A DNA stretch of 64,000 bases from Vibrio penaeicida (lineage in GTDB: Bacteria; Pseudomonadota; Gammaproteobacteria; Enterobacterales; Vibrionaceae), in NCBI RefSeq assembly GCF_019977755.1, contig NZ_AP025145.1, positions 558,001-622,000 on the forward strand, in the 5' to 3' direction. Each line of letters starts with the position of its first letter. The first letter of the stretch is position 1. Of the stretch, positions 4,748-12,769 are shown piece after piece. The notes under the pieces are model-generated. The model was not told the origin of the DNA. It did not search any database and saw only the letters and a program-made list of their open reading frames with translations. The position numbers and the translations under genes were made by a program.

Positions 4748-4782
4748 AAAAAAGAAACGGGCTACTTGGGTATATCACCCGT
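4748..4782 (-). terminator. Rho-independent terminator of the DUF3179 gene
   Basis: On the minus strand an ACGGG/CCCGT stem is followed by TTTCTTTTTT. The stem overlaps the DUF3179 stop codon. Its loop contains a TACCCAAGTAG half of the dispersed Vibrio palindrome, so a repeat fragment seems to have been adopted as a terminator. Confidence 0.55.
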
Positions 4783-5704
4783 CGTAAAGTTCGGTCTCTG
4801 GGTAAAAAGCTTGCCATGCAAACCAAAACACCATCACTGATGGGACAAGTTCGCCATTTTCGTCTTTCACCTGAGGGTGTCTTGCGTCTTTTTGGTAACT
4901 CACGGTTAATTTTTTCGAGCCTATCGTATCTTCAAAATGAGGGTTTCCTTCGAGCTCAGAAACTGGGTACGCCTTGGCTTTTCCATCGACAATGACACCT
5001 ACCACCCAGTCCTTTTGAGGTAGCTCATTCCTGTTTTCTGGTACTGGAAACATCGGCGCGTCCGACGCAAAATATCGCGCATATGCCTGACCAAAATAGT
5101 CTCGTTTGTATCCCGTATCTAGAGATAGTACTTCGCCATTTGGGTTGGCTGCTTGCCATGCGTTCCACGTCATGTGTTTTGAAGGCATCCAAGTTAAGCG
5201 CTTTCCAGTCTCTAAACCACTGACGGAAGTGAGACCGAGTTGCGTCCATAGCGATTCAGTTTCTCTGTCGTACATGAGGACGTCACTTCGATAGAGCAAT
5301 CCAGACACACCAAACGTTTTAGCCTTACCATCTACTCGTGCATCGAACACCATGCCAGTTCCACAAAGTGGGCAGTAAGTGACGGTAAATGGTGTGTTCT
5401 TGATGCGATCGTTAACGATCTCGTGCCAAACCAAAATCCGCGTTGGATACGCTCTGGCAACGCCATTCACTTCCACACCTATGACAATGTCATCTTTTTG
5501 TAAATAGTCGACTTTGCTCGCAGGGATGAATTTTGGTTGATCGATTGACGGTATTCCATCCCGTGGCGGTCCCCCGTGCAGAATCTCACTGGAATCAATA
5601 GTTGCTCCGGCTAACTCAAAGCCATTCAATGAAAGGGAATATGCTTGAAAACTTAACAATAACAAGCATGTATATAACAATCCATTACGTCTATAAAGCC
5701 TCAT
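4775..5704 (-). CDS. DUF3179 domain-containing exported protein
   Basis: A 309-residue protein with a signal peptide (about residues 1-23, YTCLLLLSFQAYS). The DUF3179 hallmark TYCPLCGTGMVFDA is present, with its two conserved cysteines in a CPLC arrangement that could bind metal or form a disulfide. The domain fills the rest of the chain, including VGVIVDGKAKAYPVSEL repeats of a strand-rich fold. The family's biochemical function is not established. The gene is transcribed away from the metallophore operon, with 208 bp between the two starts, so the shared upstream region could regulate both. Confidence 0.85.
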   Translation of the reverse strand: MRLYRRNGLLYTCLLLLSFQAYSLSLNGFELAGATIDSSEILHGGPPRDGIPSIDQPKFIPASKVDYLQKDDIVIGVEVNGVARAYPTRILVWHEIVNDRIKNTPFTVTYCPLCGTGMVFDARVDGKAKTFGVSGLLYRSDVLMYDRETESLWTQLGLTSVSGLETGKRLTWMPSKHMTWNAWQAANPNGEVLSLDTGYKRDYFGQAYARYFASDAPMFPVPENRNELPQKDWVVGVIVDGKAKAYPVSELEGNPHFEDTIGSKKLTVSYQKDARHPQVKDENGELVPSVMVFWFAWQAFYPETELYDG

Positions 5705-5779
5705 AACCGTATCCTTTACGCTATTTCATCAAACTAGATAGACCGTACAAATGACGGTGAAATTTCGTGATTTTTCCTA

Positions 5780-5808
5780 TTGATAATTACTCTCAATTCG
5801 ATTATTTT
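5780..5808 (+). promoter_or_regulatory. Predicted sigma-70 promoter of the metallophore operon
   Basis: TTGATA (5780-5785) and TATTTT (5803-5808) are separated by 17 bp. Transcription would start near 5815, leaving a leader of about 100 bases before the binding-protein ATG. The -35 region is overlapped by the Fur-like box and the start region is followed by the Zur-like box. Confidence 0.5.
5781..5795. promoter_or_regulatory. Fur-box candidate
   Basis: TGATAATTACTCTCA matches the 7-1-7 Fur consensus TGATAAT-N-ATTATCA at 12 of 14 defined positions. It lies over the predicted -35 element of the importer/metallophore operon, where iron-loaded Fur would block RNA polymerase. Confidence 0.6.
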
Positions 5809-5820
5809 GCCCGCCATTGT

Positions 5821-5839
5821 GATGTTATACAGTTACAGT
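5821..5839. promoter_or_regulatory. Zur-box candidate
   Basis: GATGTTATACAGTTACAGT matches the gammaproteobacterial Zur palindrome AATGTTATA-N-TATAACATT at about 13 of 18 positions; the left half is nearly perfect and the right half degenerate. It lies just downstream of the predicted transcription start. Zur control would fit a zinc-scavenging opine metallophore. Confidence 0.4.
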
Positions 5840-5912
5840 TTAATCAGTAAAAGCTAATTAAAAAAGCTGACTCGGTAAAAAATTAATCAAAAAAACGCTT
5901 TGGAGAATAATA

Positions 5913-7022
5913 ATGAAAAGACGTTTGTTAAAGGCTATAGGTGTGCTGTCGGTTGCAATTGGCAGCATGAGCAGTGCGGTGGCAGATATTCACTTTAAAG
6001 ATGTGATTGGCCGTGATGTTCACCTTGAAAAACCAGCCGAAAGTATATTCCTCGGTTTTTATTTTGAAGACTACTTGGCAATTGCGGGACCAGATGCTTA
6101 CAAGAAAGTGTCCATTTTCCCTCGCCACTCATGGAAAGACTACCGTTTATCTCAGTGGGAAACGTACAGCAAAATCATCCCAGAGATCGAAACCATTACA
6201 GATTCAGGATCCATTTATACGGGAACCTTTGATTTTGAAAAATTACTAGCGACTAAGCCAGATGTCGCTTTAGTAGCTGCGTGGCAGTATAAATCACTTG
6301 GCGACAAAGTTGAGATTCTGGAAAAAAGCGGCATCAAAGTTGTGGTCGTTGATTTCAACGCTCAGACACTTGAAAAGCACGTCACCAGCGCGCGTGTTAT
6401 TGGCAAAGTAATGGGTACAGAAGAGCGCGCCGAAGCCATCGCTACTGAGTATGAAAATACCGTCAAAGATGTACAAAACCGCGTTGCAAAGTATCTGAAA
6501 AGTAACGAGCCACGCCGTGTTTATGTAGAAATTGGTACCGGTGGTCCAAACGAGTACGGTAAATCATACTCGAACGCGATGTGGGGGAATATCCTGAACA
6601 TGGCGGGTGCTGATAACATTGCTAACGGTAAATTCAAAGGCTCTGCACACCTAACGCCAGAATACGTATTGAGCAAAAACCCAGAAGTTATTTTTGTTTC
6701 AGGTGCGCACTGGGCGAAATACAGCGACAGCGCTTTACTCGGCTTTGGCACTACGGCGCAAGAAGCCCAATCACGTTACCGCCCATATCTAGAAAGAGCG
6801 GGTTGGAAGCAGCTAACTGCAGTGAAAAATGGTGATGTTTACGGCATGTACCATTCCGGAACACGTACGATTTACGATCATGTTTTCTTGCAGTATTTGG
6901 CGAAGTCAATTTACCCAGAAGCGTTTAAAGACATTGACCCTGTTAAGTCTCACCAATCTTTCTTCGACAATTACATGCCGCAGAAACTGGACGGTACTTT
7001 CATGATCAAAGTAGAAGGCTAA
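5913..7022 (+). CDS. ABC importer substrate-binding protein (BtuF/FepB type), likely for the metal-opine complex
   Basis: A 369-residue periplasmic protein with a signal peptide (residues 1-24, ending SSAVA), then a helical-backbone (cluster A, Peripla_BP_2) binding fold beginning IHFKDVIGRDVHLEKPAE. TKPDVALVAAW and LSKNPEVIFVSGAHW are the lobe motifs of siderophore and corrinoid receptors. GGAGAATAATA gives a good ribosome-binding site. It is the first gene of a compact operon with a FecCD permease, an ATPase, CntL, CntM and an EamA exporter. The inferred ligand is therefore the metal complex of the opine made by the downstream genes. Known staphylopine import uses an Opp/Nik-type receptor (CntA), so this receptor class is unusual. 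Confidence 0.85.
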   Translation: MKRRLLKAIGVLSVAIGSMSSAVADIHFKDVIGRDVHLEKPAESIFLGFYFEDYLAIAGPDAYKKVSIFPRHSWKDYRLSQWETYSKIIPEIETITDSGSIYTGTFDFEKLLATKPDVALVAAWQYKSLGDKVEILEKSGIKVVVVDFNAQTLEKHVTSARVIGKVMGTEERAEAIATEYENTVKDVQNRVAKYLKSNEPRRVYVEIGTGGPNEYGKSYSNAMWGNILNMAGADNIANGKFKGSAHLTPEYVLSKNPEVIFVSGAHWAKYSDSALLGFGTTAQEAQSRYRPYLERAGWKQLTAVKNGDVYGMYHSGTRTIYDHVFLQYLAKSIYPEAFKDIDPVKSHQSFFDNYMPQKLDGTFMIKVEG

Positions 7023-7026
7023 TGTC

Positions 7027-8097
7027 ATGAGCGAAGCAGTCAAATCGCCATTGCCTTCAAACGTTTCTGATAAACGTCCTGGCATTTACCAGCAGTTGCA
7101 AAAGCGCCGTTTGAAAGTGCTGCTTGCAACGGTTGTGGCGATGAGTATTTCTGTTCTATTTGATATTGGTACAGGATCTTCTTGGCTGGGTGTTGATCAG
7201 GTGATCGAAGCGCTTGTTGGTGGACCGTCGGGAGACAGTCTATCAACAACTATTGTGTGGCAGCTTAGGCTGCCCGTTACGCTGACGTGTATCGTTGTTG
7301 GAGCCTCTCTAGGCTTGGCTGGGGGACTTATGCAAACGTTGCTCGCCAACCCGCTGGCGAGCCCCTATACACTAGGCATTTCGGCGGCAGCAGGATTTGG
7401 TGCGGCACTGGCACTGCTCACTGGCTTTTCTATTTTTGGACTGCATTGGCTCGGTGTGCCATTTGCGGCATTTGTGTCATCAGGCTTAGCCAGTATGGCT
7501 ATTTACACGATTGGTCGCAGCCGTAACATGGATGCCAAAGTACTGATTCTTGCGGGTATTGTGGTGCTGTTTTTCTTCCAAGCTTTGCAGTCATTGGTTC
7601 AGTATTTAGCCTCACCTGAAGTGTTACAGCAAATCGTGTTCTGGTTGTTTGGTAGCCTACTTAAAGCGAGCTGGCTGTCATTCTTTGTGTCTGGCGCAAT
7701 ATTGTTGGCAGGCTTGGCGATTGCTTTACCAAAAGTGTGGGCGTTAACGGCTTTGTCTTCAGGAGAAGAGCGCGCTCAAGCATTGGGCATTAATACTCGC
7801 CGATTGCGCCTACAAATGTTCTTGCTTTGTTCGCTGCTGACTGCGGGTGCTGTTTCGTTTGTTGGCACCATTGGGTTTATAGGATTGGTTGCGCCGCACC
7901 TTGCACGAATGTTGGTAGGGGAAGATCAGCGCTTCTATTTGCCTTTAGCAACCTGTATGGGGGCGTTATTACTTTGCGCGTCGTCTTTGGTCGCGAAACT
8001 CATTGTACCGGGTACGATTATTCCAATTGGCATTGTTACGTCGCTAGTGGGCGTTCCTTTCCTATTGTATTTACTCGTTAGCAAGAGGTTTAGTTAA
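7027..8097 (+). CDS. FecCD/BtuC-type ABC transporter permease
   Basis: A 356-residue inner-membrane permease of the FecCD family. About ten hydrophobic segments begin near residue 30; TIVWQLRLPVTLTCIVVGASLGLAGGLMQTLLANPLASPYTLGISAAAGFG is the family's conserved N-terminal block, and GTIGFIGLVAPHLARMLVG near residue 285 is the coupling-helix region that contacts the ATPase. It starts 4 bp after the binding-protein stop and its own stop overlaps the ATPase start by one base, so translation is probably coupled. It should work as a homodimer with the ATPase at 8097. Confidence 0.92.
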   Translation: MSEAVKSPLPSNVSDKRPGIYQQLQKRRLKVLLATVVAMSISVLFDIGTGSSWLGVDQVIEALVGGPSGDSLSTTIVWQLRLPVTLTCIVVGASLGLAGGLMQTLLANPLASPYTLGISAAAGFGAALALLTGFSIFGLHWLGVPFAAFVSSGLASMAIYTIGRSRNMDAKVLILAGIVVLFFFQALQSLVQYLASPEVLQQIVFWLFGSLLKASWLSFFVSGAILLAGLAIALPKVWALTALSSGEERAQALGINTRRLRLQMFLLCSLLTAGAVSFVGTIGFIGLVAPHLARMLVGEDQRFYLPLATCMGALLLCASSLVAKLIVPGTIIPIGIVTSLVGVPFLLYLLVSKRFS

Positions 8098-8855
8098 TGA
8101 AACAGTTATTGATTCAAGATCTCGCGCTTAAGGTTGGCCGCAAGCAGGTACTTAAACGAGTAGATGCCCAGTTTAAGGCTGGGGAGTTCTCTGCGATTTT
8201 GGGGCCAAATGGCGCTGGAAAAACCACGCTACTTAAGGCGGTGATGGGGATATTACCCTACAGCGGAAACATATCGGCAACGGATAAAAACGGTAGCGCA
8301 TTACCCCCAACGTCTTTTTCTTATCTTTGTCAGCTTAATAAATCGCCGAGTCAATTGACCGTGATTGAAGTGGTATTACTTGGCTTGGTTCATCAGCTTA
8401 ACTGGCGCATTTCAGAAGAGCAGGAGCAAAAAGCAGAAAATATGCTGCGAGAGCTAGGTTTGATTGACATAGCCACGCGACCGTTTTCTCAGCTCAGTGG
8501 AGGTCAGCAGCAGTTGGTTTCACTAGCGCAAGCATTGGTTTCGCAACCTGATGTCCTTTTACTGGACGAGCCAACCAGTGCGTTGGATCTAAAACACCAA
8601 GTGCAAGTATTGGATCTCGCGCGACATTACACGCTGGCAAACAACACAATTACCATAGCAGTGCTCCATGATTTATCTCTTGCTGCTCGTTACTGTGATC
8701 ATTTGATATTGCTGAATGATGGAGAAGTTCAGCACAGCGGTTCTCCAGACTGCGTTTTAGAACCCGAAAAGCTCAGCCAAATCTATCAAGTTCAAGTTGA
8801 TGTTGGCTGTTGCATTCATGGTCACACCCACGTTACTCCCGTCCGACCGCTATAA
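8097..8855 (+). CDS. FecE/BtuD-type ABC transporter ATP-binding protein
   Basis: A 252-residue ATPase. Walker A is GPNGAGKT (36-43), the signature LSGGQQQ (133-139), Walker B VLLLDEP (153-159), with the D-loop SALD and the H-loop in VLHDLSLAARYCDH. It powers the FecCD permease encoded directly upstream (one-base overlap). The C-terminal tail ends with Cys/His-rich VGCCIHGHTHVTPV, an uncommon extension that could bind metal. cntL begins 31 bp downstream in the same operon. Confidence 0.93.
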   Translation: MKQLLIQDLALKVGRKQVLKRVDAQFKAGEFSAILGPNGAGKTTLLKAVMGILPYSGNISATDKNGSALPPTSFSYLCQLNKSPSQLTVIEVVLLGLVHQLNWRISEEQEQKAENMLRELGLIDIATRPFSQLSGGQQQLVSLAQALVSQPDVLLLDEPTSALDLKHQVQVLDLARHYTLANNTITIAVLHDLSLAARYCDHLILLNDGEVQHSGSPDCVLEPEKLSQIYQVQVDVGCCIHGHTHVTPVRPL

Positions 8856-8886
8856 GCGGATTAGGACGTTTTCAAAGGATGTCATT

Positions 8887-9672
8887 ATGACGATGACTAA
8901 CAGGCACTACCAACTATTAGTAGCCATCTCTACATTTGAATCCCAAATACATGCATTGACTCAATACAGCGCAGAAAGCTGCGACTGCTTTACACTACTG
9001 CAGGTGAAACTGGATGAGCTTTGTGCGTGGATATTGCAGGAAAAACAACAAACCATCAGTGATGAATTGGGTTATAACCCAGAGTATGACAGGCAACTGA
9101 AAAAACTGCGTGAAACGGCAGTTAAGGCCTTGTGCATACTAGAAAAGCACCAATCTCAGTGTGCTCAGAATCACAGCTTAAGTGTTAGCGACTATTTGTG
9201 TCAGTTGTCTGAAAACACTCAAATTGAGCTAAGAAATGCAGGAATTGAAAACGACTCAAGAGTACTTTTTGTTGGTTCGGGTTCCTACCCACTTTCTGTT
9301 TTTACTATTTCTCAGCTAACAGGTGCAATCGTACACGGAGTGGATATCGATGAGCAGGCTGTTGCCATGGCAAATCAGTTAAAAACATCCAATTTGAGTA
9401 CGACATTTGGCTGCCAAGACTTGGTCACAGAGTTTGAGACATTTCGCCCGACGCATATTGTTGTGGCGTCACTGGTTGAACATAAGTGGGAGCTTTTAAA
9501 CCAGTTAAAACCGTATTTGGATAGCACGCATAAAGTGATGGTGCGATTTGGAAATGGGTTGAAGTCCGCTTTCAACTATCCATTTAACCCAAATTTGATG
9601 GAAGGGTGGCAAACCGAACTGATCCAAAATAAAGCAGCGGTTTACGATACTGTTTTAATGGGAAGGGAGTAA
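8887..9672 (+). CDS. cntL: Nicotianamine synthase-like opine metallophore enzyme (CntL family)
   Basis: About 261 residues, close to CntL of Staphylococcus (about 270). The family joins the aminobutyrate part of S-adenosylmethionine to histidine, the first step of staphylopine/pseudopaline synthesis. Visible motifs: VLFVGSGSYPLS (126-137), equivalent to the NAS segment FVGSGPLPL, and HGVDIDEQAVAMAN (150-163), equivalent to NAS YDIDxxAN. Helical N terminus of about 120 residues. The ATG at 8887 is preceded by AAAGGA at 7 bases; a longer frame from 8797 overlaps the ATPase gene and lacks a site. cntM follows after 3 bp. No histidine racemase (CntK) gene is nearby, so L-histidine is the likely substrate, as in Pseudomonas. 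Confidence 0.87.
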   Translation: MTMTNRHYQLLVAISTFESQIHALTQYSAESCDCFTLLQVKLDELCAWILQEKQQTISDELGYNPEYDRQLKKLRETAVKALCILEKHQSQCAQNHSLSVSDYLCQLSENTQIELRNAGIENDSRVLFVGSGSYPLSVFTISQLTGAIVHGVDIDEQAVAMANQLKTSNLSTTFGCQDLVTEFETFRPTHIVVASLVEHKWELLNQLKPYLDSTHKVMVRFGNGLKSAFNYPFNPNLMEGWQTELIQNKAAVYDTVLMGRE

Positions 9673-9675
9673 CTC

Positions 9676-10974
9676 ATGTCATTCTCGTTAGGACGAACGT
9701 TAATTATTGGAGCGGGTCCGGCAGCATTTCAAACGGCAAACCTTATCGCCTCATATTGCGAAACGATTGCGCTTGCGAGTCGACAATCTGTTCGTTGGAA
9801 TGAGCGCTACGCTCTGCTTGAACAAAGTCGCGTTGCCACGTGTGAAGCGGCAAAGCCTTCACTAGAGCCTCTTTCAGGGCAAGTGAAATTCGATCACGTG
9901 TTTCCAGATCTAACAGCAATTACGGGACGTTGGGATACGCTGGTTCTAGCTACCCCTTCTCACGCTTATAAAGAAGCATTGCTCGCGCTGCCCGAGAATG
10001 CCCTTAACGATGTTAAGCAGGTAGTGCTGATATCTTCAATGTTTGGTGGGCATCAGTTAGTGAATGGATTTTTCCATTCAAAAGATCTATCACCAAACAT
10101 TACCGTTTTTTCCAACTACTATGCAGCGACGAAATTCTCTGTATGCGGTAATACGGATGATGTGCAAACAGCTGGTGTAAAAGTCATCACTAAGGCTGCA
10201 AAAAAGCGAGTGTATGTCCATGAAAAGCAAAAAGGTGGTGACGCCGTGTCAACCTTTGTACATGTGCTTGGCAACGTCGGGATTGATGTTGTTGAAATGG
10301 ATAACGCGTTCAGTGTAGAAGGCCGAAATATCACTGCCTATGTTCATCCCGCTTTTTTCATCACGCCTTTTTCGCTGAAGCATATTCTCAGTCAAAATGG
10401 CGACAAAAAGTACATGTATAAGCTTTTCCCTGAAGGTCCAGTTACTCAATCTGCCATTAAAACGCTAGTTGATCTTTGGCGGGATATATCCACCTTGATA
10501 TCACATCACTCAGGTACACCCATTAATTTGCTCCAATTTCTTAATGACGACAATTACCCTGTCCATGAAGAAACCATATCGCGAGAACAAATTAATGGAT
10601 TCAGTAATCTCTCGCCTATTGAGCAGGAATACCTGATATACATCCGCTATACAGCGATATTGATTGACCCATTTTCAACACCGGACAGGCAAGGTCGATA
10701 TTTTGATTTTTCCGCTGTGCCTTATGCAAAAGGGGAAGTGAAAGATGGAAAATTGATACTGCCTCGTGTGCCGCTGGAAGACCTACAAACTTTGTACTGG
10801 ATTCAAGCGTTAGCAACACACTCTAAGCTGCGTTTACCTGCTGTAGAGCGAATCTTAGATATTTTTGAGTCGTGGCTACATGACAATAAACTGCCCGCTA
10901 CGGTGGTTGAACAACTTCAATCTCAAGCACAGGAAAACTTGTGTTGGGTTACTAAAGGAAATACATCATTATGA
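9676..10974 (+). CDS. cntM: Opine dehydrogenase (CntM family; staphylopine/pseudopaline-type synthase)
   Basis: A 432-residue protein, matching the about 430 residues of CntM. It begins with a Rossmann dinucleotide motif (LIIGAGPAAFQTANL, 9-23); Arg36 after the second strand fits NADPH use. The family reductively condenses the CntL product with a 2-oxo acid (pyruvate gives staphylopine, 2-oxoglutarate pseudopaline). Conserved C-terminal-domain stretches include YVHPAFFITPFSL and LNDDNYPVHEE. A GGGAG site precedes the ATG. The YYAATK segment (148-153) appears to align with the position reported to govern oxo-acid choice, suggesting 2-oxoglutarate, but this rests on recalled alignment only. The gene overlaps the exporter gene by 4 bases. 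Confidence 0.9.
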   Translation: MSFSLGRTLIIGAGPAAFQTANLIASYCETIALASRQSVRWNERYALLEQSRVATCEAAKPSLEPLSGQVKFDHVFPDLTAITGRWDTLVLATPSHAYKEALLALPENALNDVKQVVLISSMFGGHQLVNGFFHSKDLSPNITVFSNYYAATKFSVCGNTDDVQTAGVKVITKAAKKRVYVHEKQKGGDAVSTFVHVLGNVGIDVVEMDNAFSVEGRNITAYVHPAFFITPFSLKHILSQNGDKKYMYKLFPEGPVTQSAIKTLVDLWRDISTLISHHSGTPINLLQFLNDDNYPVHEETISREQINGFSNLSPIEQEYLIYIRYTAILIDPFSTPDRQGRYFDFSAVPYAKGEVKDGKLILPRVPLEDLQTLYWIQALATHSKLRLPAVERILDIFESWLHDNKLPATVVEQLQSQAQENLCWVTKGNTSL

Positions 10975-11849
10975 ACAAAGGTGTGGCACTCGCCATATTT
11001 TCAGCGTTTATTTTCAGTGTAATGAATGCATTGATCAAAGCGGCAAGTTTAACCATTCCAAGTGCGGAAATTGTGTTCTTTCGAAGTGCGATTGGTACTG
11101 TCTTGATCCTCGGATTAATGTGGCAGGCAAAGGTGAGGTTTTCTACAACAGGTGTCCCTTTATTGGTTTTAAGAGGGCTATTTGGGGCGGCTTACTTGTT
11201 GGCATTCGTGTATACCATTGCTCACATTCCATTAGCGGACGCCGCCATACTTGCGTATCTGTCTCCCTTCTTTGTGATTCTTTTATCAAGCGTCGTACTG
11301 GGTGAAAAGTTACCGAATAAAGCCGCTATCTTGCTTCCTACGGTATTGGTTGGTGTCGCACTGGTTGTGAATCCATTTAATTTTGACTCCTTTAATGTGT
11401 ATGCGCTTGCTGGTGTAGCCAGTGCCGTCTTTGCCGCGGGAGCATCGATTACCATTCGCCATCTGAGTAAAAAGCATCACACCTACGAAATCGTCTTCTA
11501 TTTCCTTTTCACCGCCATGCTTGTTTCTGCTTATTTGATGAAAGATGAGTTTGTGATCCCTCAAGGAATTGCGTGGGTGTATCTGATCGCGATTGGTGTC
11601 GTTTCTCTTATTGGGCAAATTTTCCTAACAAAGGCATTCACTCACGAAAACGCAGCCGTTGTTGCAGTCACTCGCTATATTGGGCTGGTTTTCAATGTGC
11701 TTTGGGGGGTTATTTTCTGGCAAGAAATTCCAGATTGGATGACGGCATTAGGTGGGGCAACAATTGTAGTCGCTTGTATCGCGCTATCTTGGAAAAGCAC
11801 ACCTAAAAAAGCGAACCCAGACCCGATGCCTAAGCCTACGAATTCTTAA
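10971..11849 (+). CDS. cntI: EamA/DMT-family exporter, likely of the opine metallophore (CntI-like)
   Basis: A 292-residue inner-membrane protein with about ten hydrophobic helices in two EamA repeats (FSAFIFSVMNALIKAA and later GVASAVFAAGASITIRH). It overlaps cntM by ATGA, indicating translational coupling. In Pseudomonas aeruginosa the cntO-L-M-I operon ends with an EamA protein required for pseudopaline secretion, and the position and family here are the same. The C terminus is polar (KKANPDPMPKP). It could be a general metabolite exporter, but the operon makes metallophore export the best inference. Confidence 0.82.
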   Translation: MNKGVALAIFSAFIFSVMNALIKAASLTIPSAEIVFFRSAIGTVLILGLMWQAKVRFSTTGVPLLVLRGLFGAAYLLAFVYTIAHIPLADAAILAYLSPFFVILLSSVVLGEKLPNKAAILLPTVLVGVALVVNPFNFDSFNVYALAGVASAVFAAGASITIRHLSKKHHTYEIVFYFLFTAMLVSAYLMKDEFVIPQGIAWVYLIAIGVVSLIGQIFLTKAFTHENAAVVAVTRYIGLVFNVLWGVIFWQEIPDWMTALGGATIVVACIALSWKSTPKKANPDPMPKPTNS

Positions 11850-11915
11850 TGGGGTTCTGACTGTTAAACCATTTGAACATCGTATATCTTTGTTTTATCG
11901 GATTTCGAAACAGAG

Positions 11916-12332
11916 ATGGCAATGAAAATAGTTGAATTAGATTGGACGCAAACTATTCCTGTCAGGCATGAGGTGCTTTGGCCCGATATGCCTGAAGATT
12001 TTTGCCATGTGCCTGGTGATGAAGATGCCAGGCATTACGGTGTGGAAGTTGATGGAGAAGTCGTTTGTGTAGCATCAGTGTTTATTGATGTAGAAGCGAA
12101 ATCAGCAAGGCTAAGAAAGTTTGCTACGGTACTTGAACATCGCCATCTTGGGTACGGTTCATCAGTGGTGGAGCATATTCTCAAGCAACTCCCAGAAATT
12201 GGAATTGAGTATTTTTGGTGCGATGCCCGAGAGTCTGCAATGGATTTCTACCATAAATTCGATATGAATGCAGAAGGCGATGCGTTTTATAAATCAGGAG
12301 TGGAGTATTACAAGATGGGGCGACATTTATGA
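11916..12332 (+). CDS. GNAT-family N-acetyltransferase
   Basis: A 138-residue GNAT protein. The acetyl-CoA pyrophosphate loop is degenerate (LEHRHLGYGSSVVEHIL, about 74-90) and the fold ends with AMDFYHKFDMNAEGDAFY, typical of the last beta-hairpin. The substrate is unknown. It follows the exporter after 66 bp on the same strand and overlaps the next gene by 4 bases (ATGA), so the two are translationally coupled. Whether both belong to the metallophore transcript is unclear, since no terminator was found between 11849 and 11916. Confidence 0.85.
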   Translation: MAMKIVELDWTQTIPVRHEVLWPDMPEDFCHVPGDEDARHYGVEVDGEVVCVASVFIDVEAKSARLRKFATVLEHRHLGYGSSVVEHILKQLPEIGIEYFWCDARESAMDFYHKFDMNAEGDAFYKSGVEYYKMGRHL

Positions 12333-12769
12333 CCGACAATTCATTGCACGAAAGCTACATGAGACAAGCGTTCGAGCTGTCAAAAAGTGCACTGCCAGGC
12401 TGTCGGCCAAATCCGCCTGTTGGTTGTGTGTTTGTAAAAGATGGTGAGGTTGTAAGCTCCGGCTATTCTCAACCTCCGGGCAATCATCATGCCGAAGCGG
12501 GCGCAATCGCCGCTTATACGGGGAGCTACGATGGGTTAGTTGCGTATGTGACGCTAGAACCCTGTTCATTCCAAGGAAGAACGCCTTCTTGTGCCAAAGC
12601 TTTAGTAAGGGTTAGACCAGAAAAAGTGTATGTCGCGATTCTTGATCCAGATACTCGTAACAGCGGCGCAGGAATAAAAATTCTTGAGGATGCGGGTATT
12701 GATGTTGAGGTTGGGTTACTTGGGGAAGAAGTGGCTTCCTTTCTGAATCCCTATCTAATTAGAAATTAA
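12329..12769 (+). CDS. Stand-alone RibD-type cytidine/deoxycytidylate-like deaminase domain
   Basis: A 146-residue zinc deaminase domain resembling the N-terminal half of RibD (diaminohydroxyphosphoribosylaminopyrimidine deaminase). HAE (54-56) supplies one zinc ligand and the catalytic Glu; PCSFQGRTPSC (78-88) supplies the two Cys ligands. RPNPPVGCVFVKDGEVVSSGY is the RibD-like start. The RibD reductase domain is absent and no riboflavin genes adjoin it, so it may deaminate another heterocycle. It overlaps the GNAT gene by 4 bases and is followed by a strong terminator. Confidence 0.85.
   Translation: MTDNSLHESYMRQAFELSKSALPGCRPNPPVGCVFVKDGEVVSSGYSQPPGNHHAEAGAIAAYTGSYDGLVAYVTLEPCSFQGRTPSCAKALVRVRPEKVYVAILDPDTRNSGAGIKILEDAGIDVEVGLLGEEVASFLNPYLIRN

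Follow-up and report, generated by a model that had tools for sequence, protein, structure and literature searches.

How a bacterium that makes an opine metallophore could bring the metal-loaded chelator back across its inner membrane is the question raised by a six-gene operon of Vibrio penaeicida. The operon lies in a window of 64,000 nucleotides (contig NZ_AP025145.1, positions 558,001 to 622,000), part of a 2.36-Mb contig in a Vibrio assembly of 6.78 Mb and three contigs. It combines CntL- and CntM-like enzymes and an EamA exporter with a FecCD-type ATP-binding cassette (ABC) importer, and it is very probably a zinc-starvation operon whose products make, export and re-import an opine metallophore.

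Operon Organization and Predicted Product

The six genes are located on the forward strand (5913-11849) and are separated by gaps of 4, -1, 31, 3 and -4 bp in the list of open reading frames (ORFs), and all six proteins score above their Pfam cut-offs. The first three adjoin each other and form a FecCD-type ABC importer set (PF01497, PF01032 and PF00005), consisting of a periplasmic binding protein (5913-7022; Peripla_BP_2, 88 bits; similar to YiuA and Veillonella 4mo9), a FecCD-family permease (7027-8097; 288.5 bits) and an ABC ATPase (8097-8855; ABC_tran, 105.4 bits). Directly upstream of cntM lies the gene for a CntL-like aminobutyryl transferase of the nicotianamine synthase (NAS) type (8887-9672; NAS, 33.6 bits; PDB CntL, E = 1.3e-18), whose ATG at 8887 falls within a longer ORF starting with TTG at 8797. 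The opine-metallophore dehydrogenase CntM (9676-10974) reaches 401 bits on Staph_opine_DH (PF10100; cut-off 25) and matches pseudopaline dehydrogenase in the PDB with E = 9.7e-78, and the last gene encodes an EamA/DMT transporter resembling the metallophore exporter CntI (10971-11849; EamA, 106.5 bits). The CntM is 97% and 92% identical to the CntM of two Vibrio penaeicida records, and the EamA protein is 60% identical to the product of the P. aeruginosa PA7 gene that adjoins cntM. Neither a TonB receptor nor a racemase is found among the six genes. A previous reading made from the sequence alone (hereafter the sequence-only reading) had described this tightly spaced operon, its gene identities, its FecCD-type importer and EamA exporter, and its lack of a CntK racemase and a TonB receptor, and all of these were borne out.

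The residue that aligns with Asp150 of S. aureus CntM is Ala in the protein of the window. In an alignment of 18 CntM rows, two of which (L016 and L186) are the same locus, this position is Ala in 17 of 17 cluster-type rows (16 distinct loci) and Thr in the single row of CntM2, a pattern that agrees with an earlier analysis (PMC7438024). According to the published rule, Ala at this position predicts the use of alpha-ketoglutarate, and hence a pseudopaline-type product is predicted. L-histidine is the probable substrate because no racemase is linked to the operon, no search for an unlinked racemase having been made.

In the mechanism we propose, CntL would join the aminobutyrate unit of S-adenosylmethionine to histidine, probably L-histidine, and CntM would combine the resulting product with alpha-ketoglutarate to give a pseudopaline-type chelator, which EamA would move outward across the inner membrane. 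The metal-loaded chelator may then re-enter the cell via an unlinked receptor or a porin, and the binding protein, FecCD permease and ATPase would deliver it to the cytoplasm, from which EamA probably recycles the emptied chelator. The operon would be repressed by Zur in response to zinc and, in many members, by Fur in response to iron.

Distribution in Vibrionaceae and Other Lineages

The distribution of the operon was surveyed in 329 Vibrionaceae genomes, with scoring limited to the best candidates per genome and with E <= 1e-60 for EamA, E <= 1e-100 for the binding protein and PF10100 for CntM. EamA was detected in 21 genomes, the binding protein in 19 and PF10100 in 20. Two of the latter (G351 and G358) contain only CntM2, the second Vibrio dehydrogenase named in PMC7438024, which shares 91% identity with its counterpart in G056, has Thr at the key position and has no CntL, EamA or ATPase within 1.5 kb on either side. 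Cluster-type CntM is therefore present in 18 genomes and the importer in 19, and both occur together in 16 (Fisher p = 2e-22, shared ancestry uncorrected). The 21-genome EamA set contains each of the 19 importer genomes and each of the 18 genomes with cluster-type CntM. Every locus in this set was read: 16 have all six genes (in one of them, G275, the reading frame of cntM is broken), three have the importer and EamA without cntL and cntM, and two have cntLM and EamA without the importer. A conserved link between the two enzymes and the importer, the lack of which the sequence-only reading had named beforehand as one of the results that would refute it, held within Vibrionaceae, where the importer is present in 16 of the 18 genomes with cluster-type CntM.

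Among 41 named CntM loci, the importer trio was found beside cntLM in the same order in eight, comprising six Vibrio, Motiliproteus (L014) and the clostridium Tepidibacter (L017). Since homologous genes in the same six-gene order are present in the latter two, the proposal that this Vibrio lineage itself recruited the importer is not supported. When the binding protein was searched class-wide (369 genomes, E <= 1e-90), the only hit was the protein of the window; proteins of Motiliproteus, Marinomonas and Spartinivicinus are nevertheless 71-85% identical to it.

Several additional observations concern the loci themselves. In the two importer-less loci (L193 5896-8966 in G143, and L194 5940-9007, reverse complement, in G152), which comprise cntLM-EamA and a Zur-like box, cntL directly follows a gene that, judged by eye, precedes the importer in the related G177. 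In G056 and G011, CntM2 (L053 6087-7373 and L055 4945-6096) is encoded at a distance of about 13 kb from the main cntM, which is closer to the cluster than the term 'orphan' would imply. In addition, CntM relatives with 56-58% identity occur on three Vibrio plasmids, one of which is typed as conjugative (V. lentus p1), and the V. lentus plasmid record annotates both a 'nicotianamine synthase family protein' and an 'opine metallophore biosynthesis dehydrogenase'.

Zur-like and Fur-like Boxes

Two candidate regulatory sites precede the operon on the forward strand. A Fur-like box, TGATAATTACTCTCA (5781-5795), matches 12 of 14 positions of TGATAATNATTATCA, which we take to be the Fur consensus (p = 0.010), and a predicted Zur-like box, GTGATGTTATACAGTTAC (5819-5836), matches 13 of 18 positions of GTTATGTTATAACATAAC, a weak match (p = 0.030). 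These p values were obtained by shuffling the 200 bp upstream of each locus 300 times and are uncorrected, the Zur consensus was written after inspection of eight of the upstream regions, and several of the 20 upstream regions come from close relatives, so that the following counts are not independent. At p < 0.05, a Zur-like box precedes 19 of the 20 importer loci and both importer-less loci, and 13 of the 20 orthologous upstream regions contain a Fur-like box at p <= 0.05. A scan of the window that allowed three mismatches to the Zur consensus found no site, the operon's own 13/18 site included.

In the whole genome, the Zur consensus occurs with one mismatch at two places, before a gene for an L31-type ribosomal protein and where a second FecCD-type transporter set begins, the genes being identified by eye in both cases. 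This second set (L085 4112-6945, at G000:C1:1352134) appears by eye to encode an ATPase, a binding protein and a permease, with the box at its start, in an order that resembles that of P. aeruginosa PA2912-PA2914.

A number of observations weigh against the interpretation of the locus as a zinc-regulated opine-metallophore operon with its own importer. The best NCBIfam model for CntL (NF033601) gives 101.5 bits versus a cut-off of 350, and that for CntM (NF033600, staphylopine_DH) gives 311.4 bits versus 675, which makes both proteins homologues below the equivalog threshold, and the product is predicted from the genes. The Zur-like box of the window is the second-weakest of the 20, no such box is found in G006 (p = 0.16), and with up to three mismatches the consensus occurs at nine places in the genome, the same number as for the reversed control. 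The importer trio does not adjoin the other 33 of the 41 named CntM loci, mostly from Bacillota and P. aeruginosa, and cntLM-EamA occurs without the importer in two genomes of the genus Photobacterium. Finally, no outer-membrane receptor was identified in a search of six genomes.

The Outer-Membrane Step

The receptor search covered six of the 16 genomes with the full operon. PF00593 had 10 matches in the genome of the window and 38 in five other CntM-positive Vibrio genomes (one of the 38 under the cut-off). None of the ten receptors has a match of at least 50% identity in all five other genomes, the closest being L092, with 50-67% identity in four genomes and 29% in G056. A Zur-like box of at least 14/18 precedes none of the 48 matches in the six genomes (only 27 bp upstream were available for L140, and L096 was scanned away from its true start), and the L129 receptor of G006 scores 13/18, equal to the site of the window. 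No receptor-like gene was found beside the operon among the loci listed. L096 itself (5707-8893, G000:C2) is a TonB receptor gene broken by a transposase-like ORF.

The best match to CntO in the genome (C1:2827626) has 29% identity and 214.6 bits, falls short of a CntO-type TonB receptor, and lies in what appears by eye to be a hydroxamate-uptake set with a Fur-like box. CntO scores of 178.5-234.7 bits in six CntM-positive Vibrio genomes versus up to 266.1 bits in CntM-negative ones do not separate the two groups. Considering that an opine is small, its passage through a porin is possible.

Loci without cntL and cntM

The three relatives that keep the importer and EamA but lack cntLM (L155 7936-11867 in G036, L185 5000-8939 in G144 and L156 7955-11843 in G049) suggest the existence of natural takers of a metallophore made by other cells. 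A tree built from the four transport proteins places them on three separate branches among the full loci, next to G025 (G036; support 1.00), the G020/G275 pair (G144; 0.997) and the group with the plasmid copies (G049; 0.973), and three separate losses are thus the simplest reading. The placements of G036 and G144 hold in a tree of EamA only (0.997 and 0.948), and that of G049 moves without support (0.266). The junctions differ: in G036, the stop codon of the ATPase gene and the start of EamA lie 94 bp apart, and in G144 the first cntL codons run in frame into EamA.

It is quite possible that these loci are relics in early decay and not a working uptake module. The G049 locus does look decayed: in this draft assembly, the reading frame is broken in the binding-protein gene and again close to the start of the ATPase gene, and the EamA branch is long. 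The losses of cntLM may be of any age. Early decay fits G036 and G144 less well, as all four ORFs are intact in both and the ATPase motifs are present, and the in-frame junction of G144 keeps the EamA reading frame joined to the cntL start. Moreover, the ratio of nonsynonymous to synonymous substitution rates between G036 and its sister G025, with both branches pooled, is 0.109 for the binding protein, 0.076 for the permease, 0.272 for the ATPase and 0.058 for EamA, whose branch is not longer, and a Zur-like box that 0 of 300 shuffles reach is kept in all three loci.

The retention of EamA where nothing is made is not explained by export of the cell's own product. A taker that imports the opine into the cytoplasm would again need an exporter, and EamA may therefore re-export the metallophore after metal release. 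A cntI (EamA) mutant of P. aeruginosa has a growth defect that vanishes when cntL is also removed (PMC5719457); in this species, however, no inner-membrane importer is known. We tentatively put forward, as a possibility that we would not yet call probable, that the FecCD importer and EamA form a self-standing uptake-and-recycling module, that cntLM has been lost independently in at least three lineages whose zinc-starvation-controlled takers pirate the opine, and that EamA is the recycling exporter that every opine importer needs. Uptake-only cheating of this kind has been reported in Staphylococcus, where S. lugdunensis has staphylopine uptake without synthesis (PMC12709192), and no report of opine-metallophore cheating in Vibrionaceae was found in the open-licence literature at the level of titles and abstracts.

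Class and Substrate of the Importer

The sequence-only reading had called the importer BtuF-type, which proved too specific. The binding protein gives 44.6 bits on the BtuF model, far from its cut-off of 234, and the permease gives 176.5 and 179.4 bits on BtuC models with cut-offs of 334 and 461, so that neither protein places the system among the vitamin B12 (BtuCDF) importers. For the ATPase, the top NCBIfam scores are to heme, F420-0, corrinoid and FecE-type models, none above its cut-off among the best 25 of 191. An AlphaFold model of the binding protein from a 76-sequence alignment has a predicted local distance difference test (pLDDT) score of 94.0, compared with 63.5 for a shallower first model. 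In the structure comparison with Foldseek, the template modelling (TM) score, normalized to the query, is 0.89 for Veillonella 4mo9, 0.79 for YiuA 9if3 and 0.56 for BtuF 5ysc, which is further off than the first two, the nearest solved relatives; H. pylori CeuE with Ni-His also matches (0.58). The modelled fold is that of the YiuA class. Among the matches listed, YiuA of Yersinia shares this fold with TM scores of 0.73-0.80 and 25-27% identity and differs in that, by its structure title, it was solved with an iron-catecholate ligand.

It is also conceivable, and in our view unlikely, that the metal is stripped from the chelator in the periplasm and that the FecCD system transports a different cargo, in line with one of the two models proposed for Pseudomonas. 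Periplasmic release is left open for pseudopaline in PMC12890022 and PMC11481552, and two loci here lack the importer, whereas in 16 Vibrionaceae genomes cntLM is linked to an importer with a binding protein. Less likely still is an importer for another chelate (an iron siderophore or xenosiderophore) that merely adjoins cntLM, for which the iron-catecholate ligand of YiuA and the Fur-like box could be cited, but against which stand the 16 genomes with both importer and cluster-type CntM versus 19 and 18 with each, the same gene order in a clostridium and the wider conservation of the Zur-like box than of the Fur-like box.

Neighbouring Features

Just after EamA lie a GNAT acetyltransferase gene and a deaminase-like ORF (11916-12769, overlapping by 4 bp). 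The acetyltransferase (11916-12332) was rejected as an operon member, as it shares these 4 bp with the ORF that follows and, within the set of loci compared, neighbours the operon in the window and in L010-L012 only. A DUF3179 protein gene (4775-5704, reverse strand) is divergent from the operon and also present in L010 and L012, and it was not detected in L011. No Rfam match was found within 5600-12500, and neither promoter-like sites (7 versus 10.8 in shuffles) nor terminator-like sites (7 versus 7.0) are in excess.

Relation to Known Systems

The sequence-only reading considered the system undescribed, which does not hold. Based on 387 CntM sequences, Morey and Kehl-Fie (2020; PMC7438024) described a Vibrio cluster type (cluster 6) with CntL/NAS directly upstream of CntM, an EamA exporter and a FecCD-type importer, from which the operon of the window does not differ in kind. 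The same study reported FecCD importers in clusters 3, 8, 9 and 10, listed Yersinia, fusobacterial and clostridial clusters among those with such importers, and recognized a general type without racemase and with EamA and FecCD. Within cluster 6, it noted a PF13673 acetyltransferase in four clusters and an upstream PF13649 methyltransferase in two; nearby proteins of the window match both families, the methyltransferase below the family cut-off. The accessible part of this paper makes no mention of Zur or Fur boxes, loci without cntLM or Vibrio plasmid copies, and a search of the open-licence literature by title and abstract found no experimental study of a Vibrio opine metallophore operon. 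The operon class is already known, and what is new here is the conservation of the boxes, the copies on plasmids and the finding that synthesis has been lost naturally from loci that keep the importer and EamA.

P. aeruginosa has the outer-membrane receptor CntO and, to our knowledge, no inner-membrane importer for pseudopaline, whereas Vibrio has an importer and no recognizable receptor. The P. aeruginosa cluster cntOLMI (zrmABCD) otherwise shares the CntL-CntM-EamA order, Ala at the keto-acid position, the lack of a racemase and control by Zur (PMC5719457). The staphylopine cluster of S. aureus (cntKLMABCDFE) has the same CntL/CntM chemistry and a reported dual repression by Fur and Zur (PMC7594338), and it differs in having the racemase CntK, Asp150 (pyruvate), an Opp-type importer and an MFS exporter (PMC7438024).

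The fate of pseudopaline at the inner membrane was stated to be unsolved in 2026 (PMC12890022). The FecCD importer is a candidate for this step of pseudopaline uptake, for which no importer is known in Pseudomonas, and by linking such a transporter to a synthesis pair of the pseudopaline type, the operon makes the step directly testable. Siderophore cheating, the counterpart of zinc piracy, is called well studied in Vibrionaceae in PMC12709192, and the relatives without cntLM would allow a test of zinc metallophore piracy and of the role that EamA may have in recycling.

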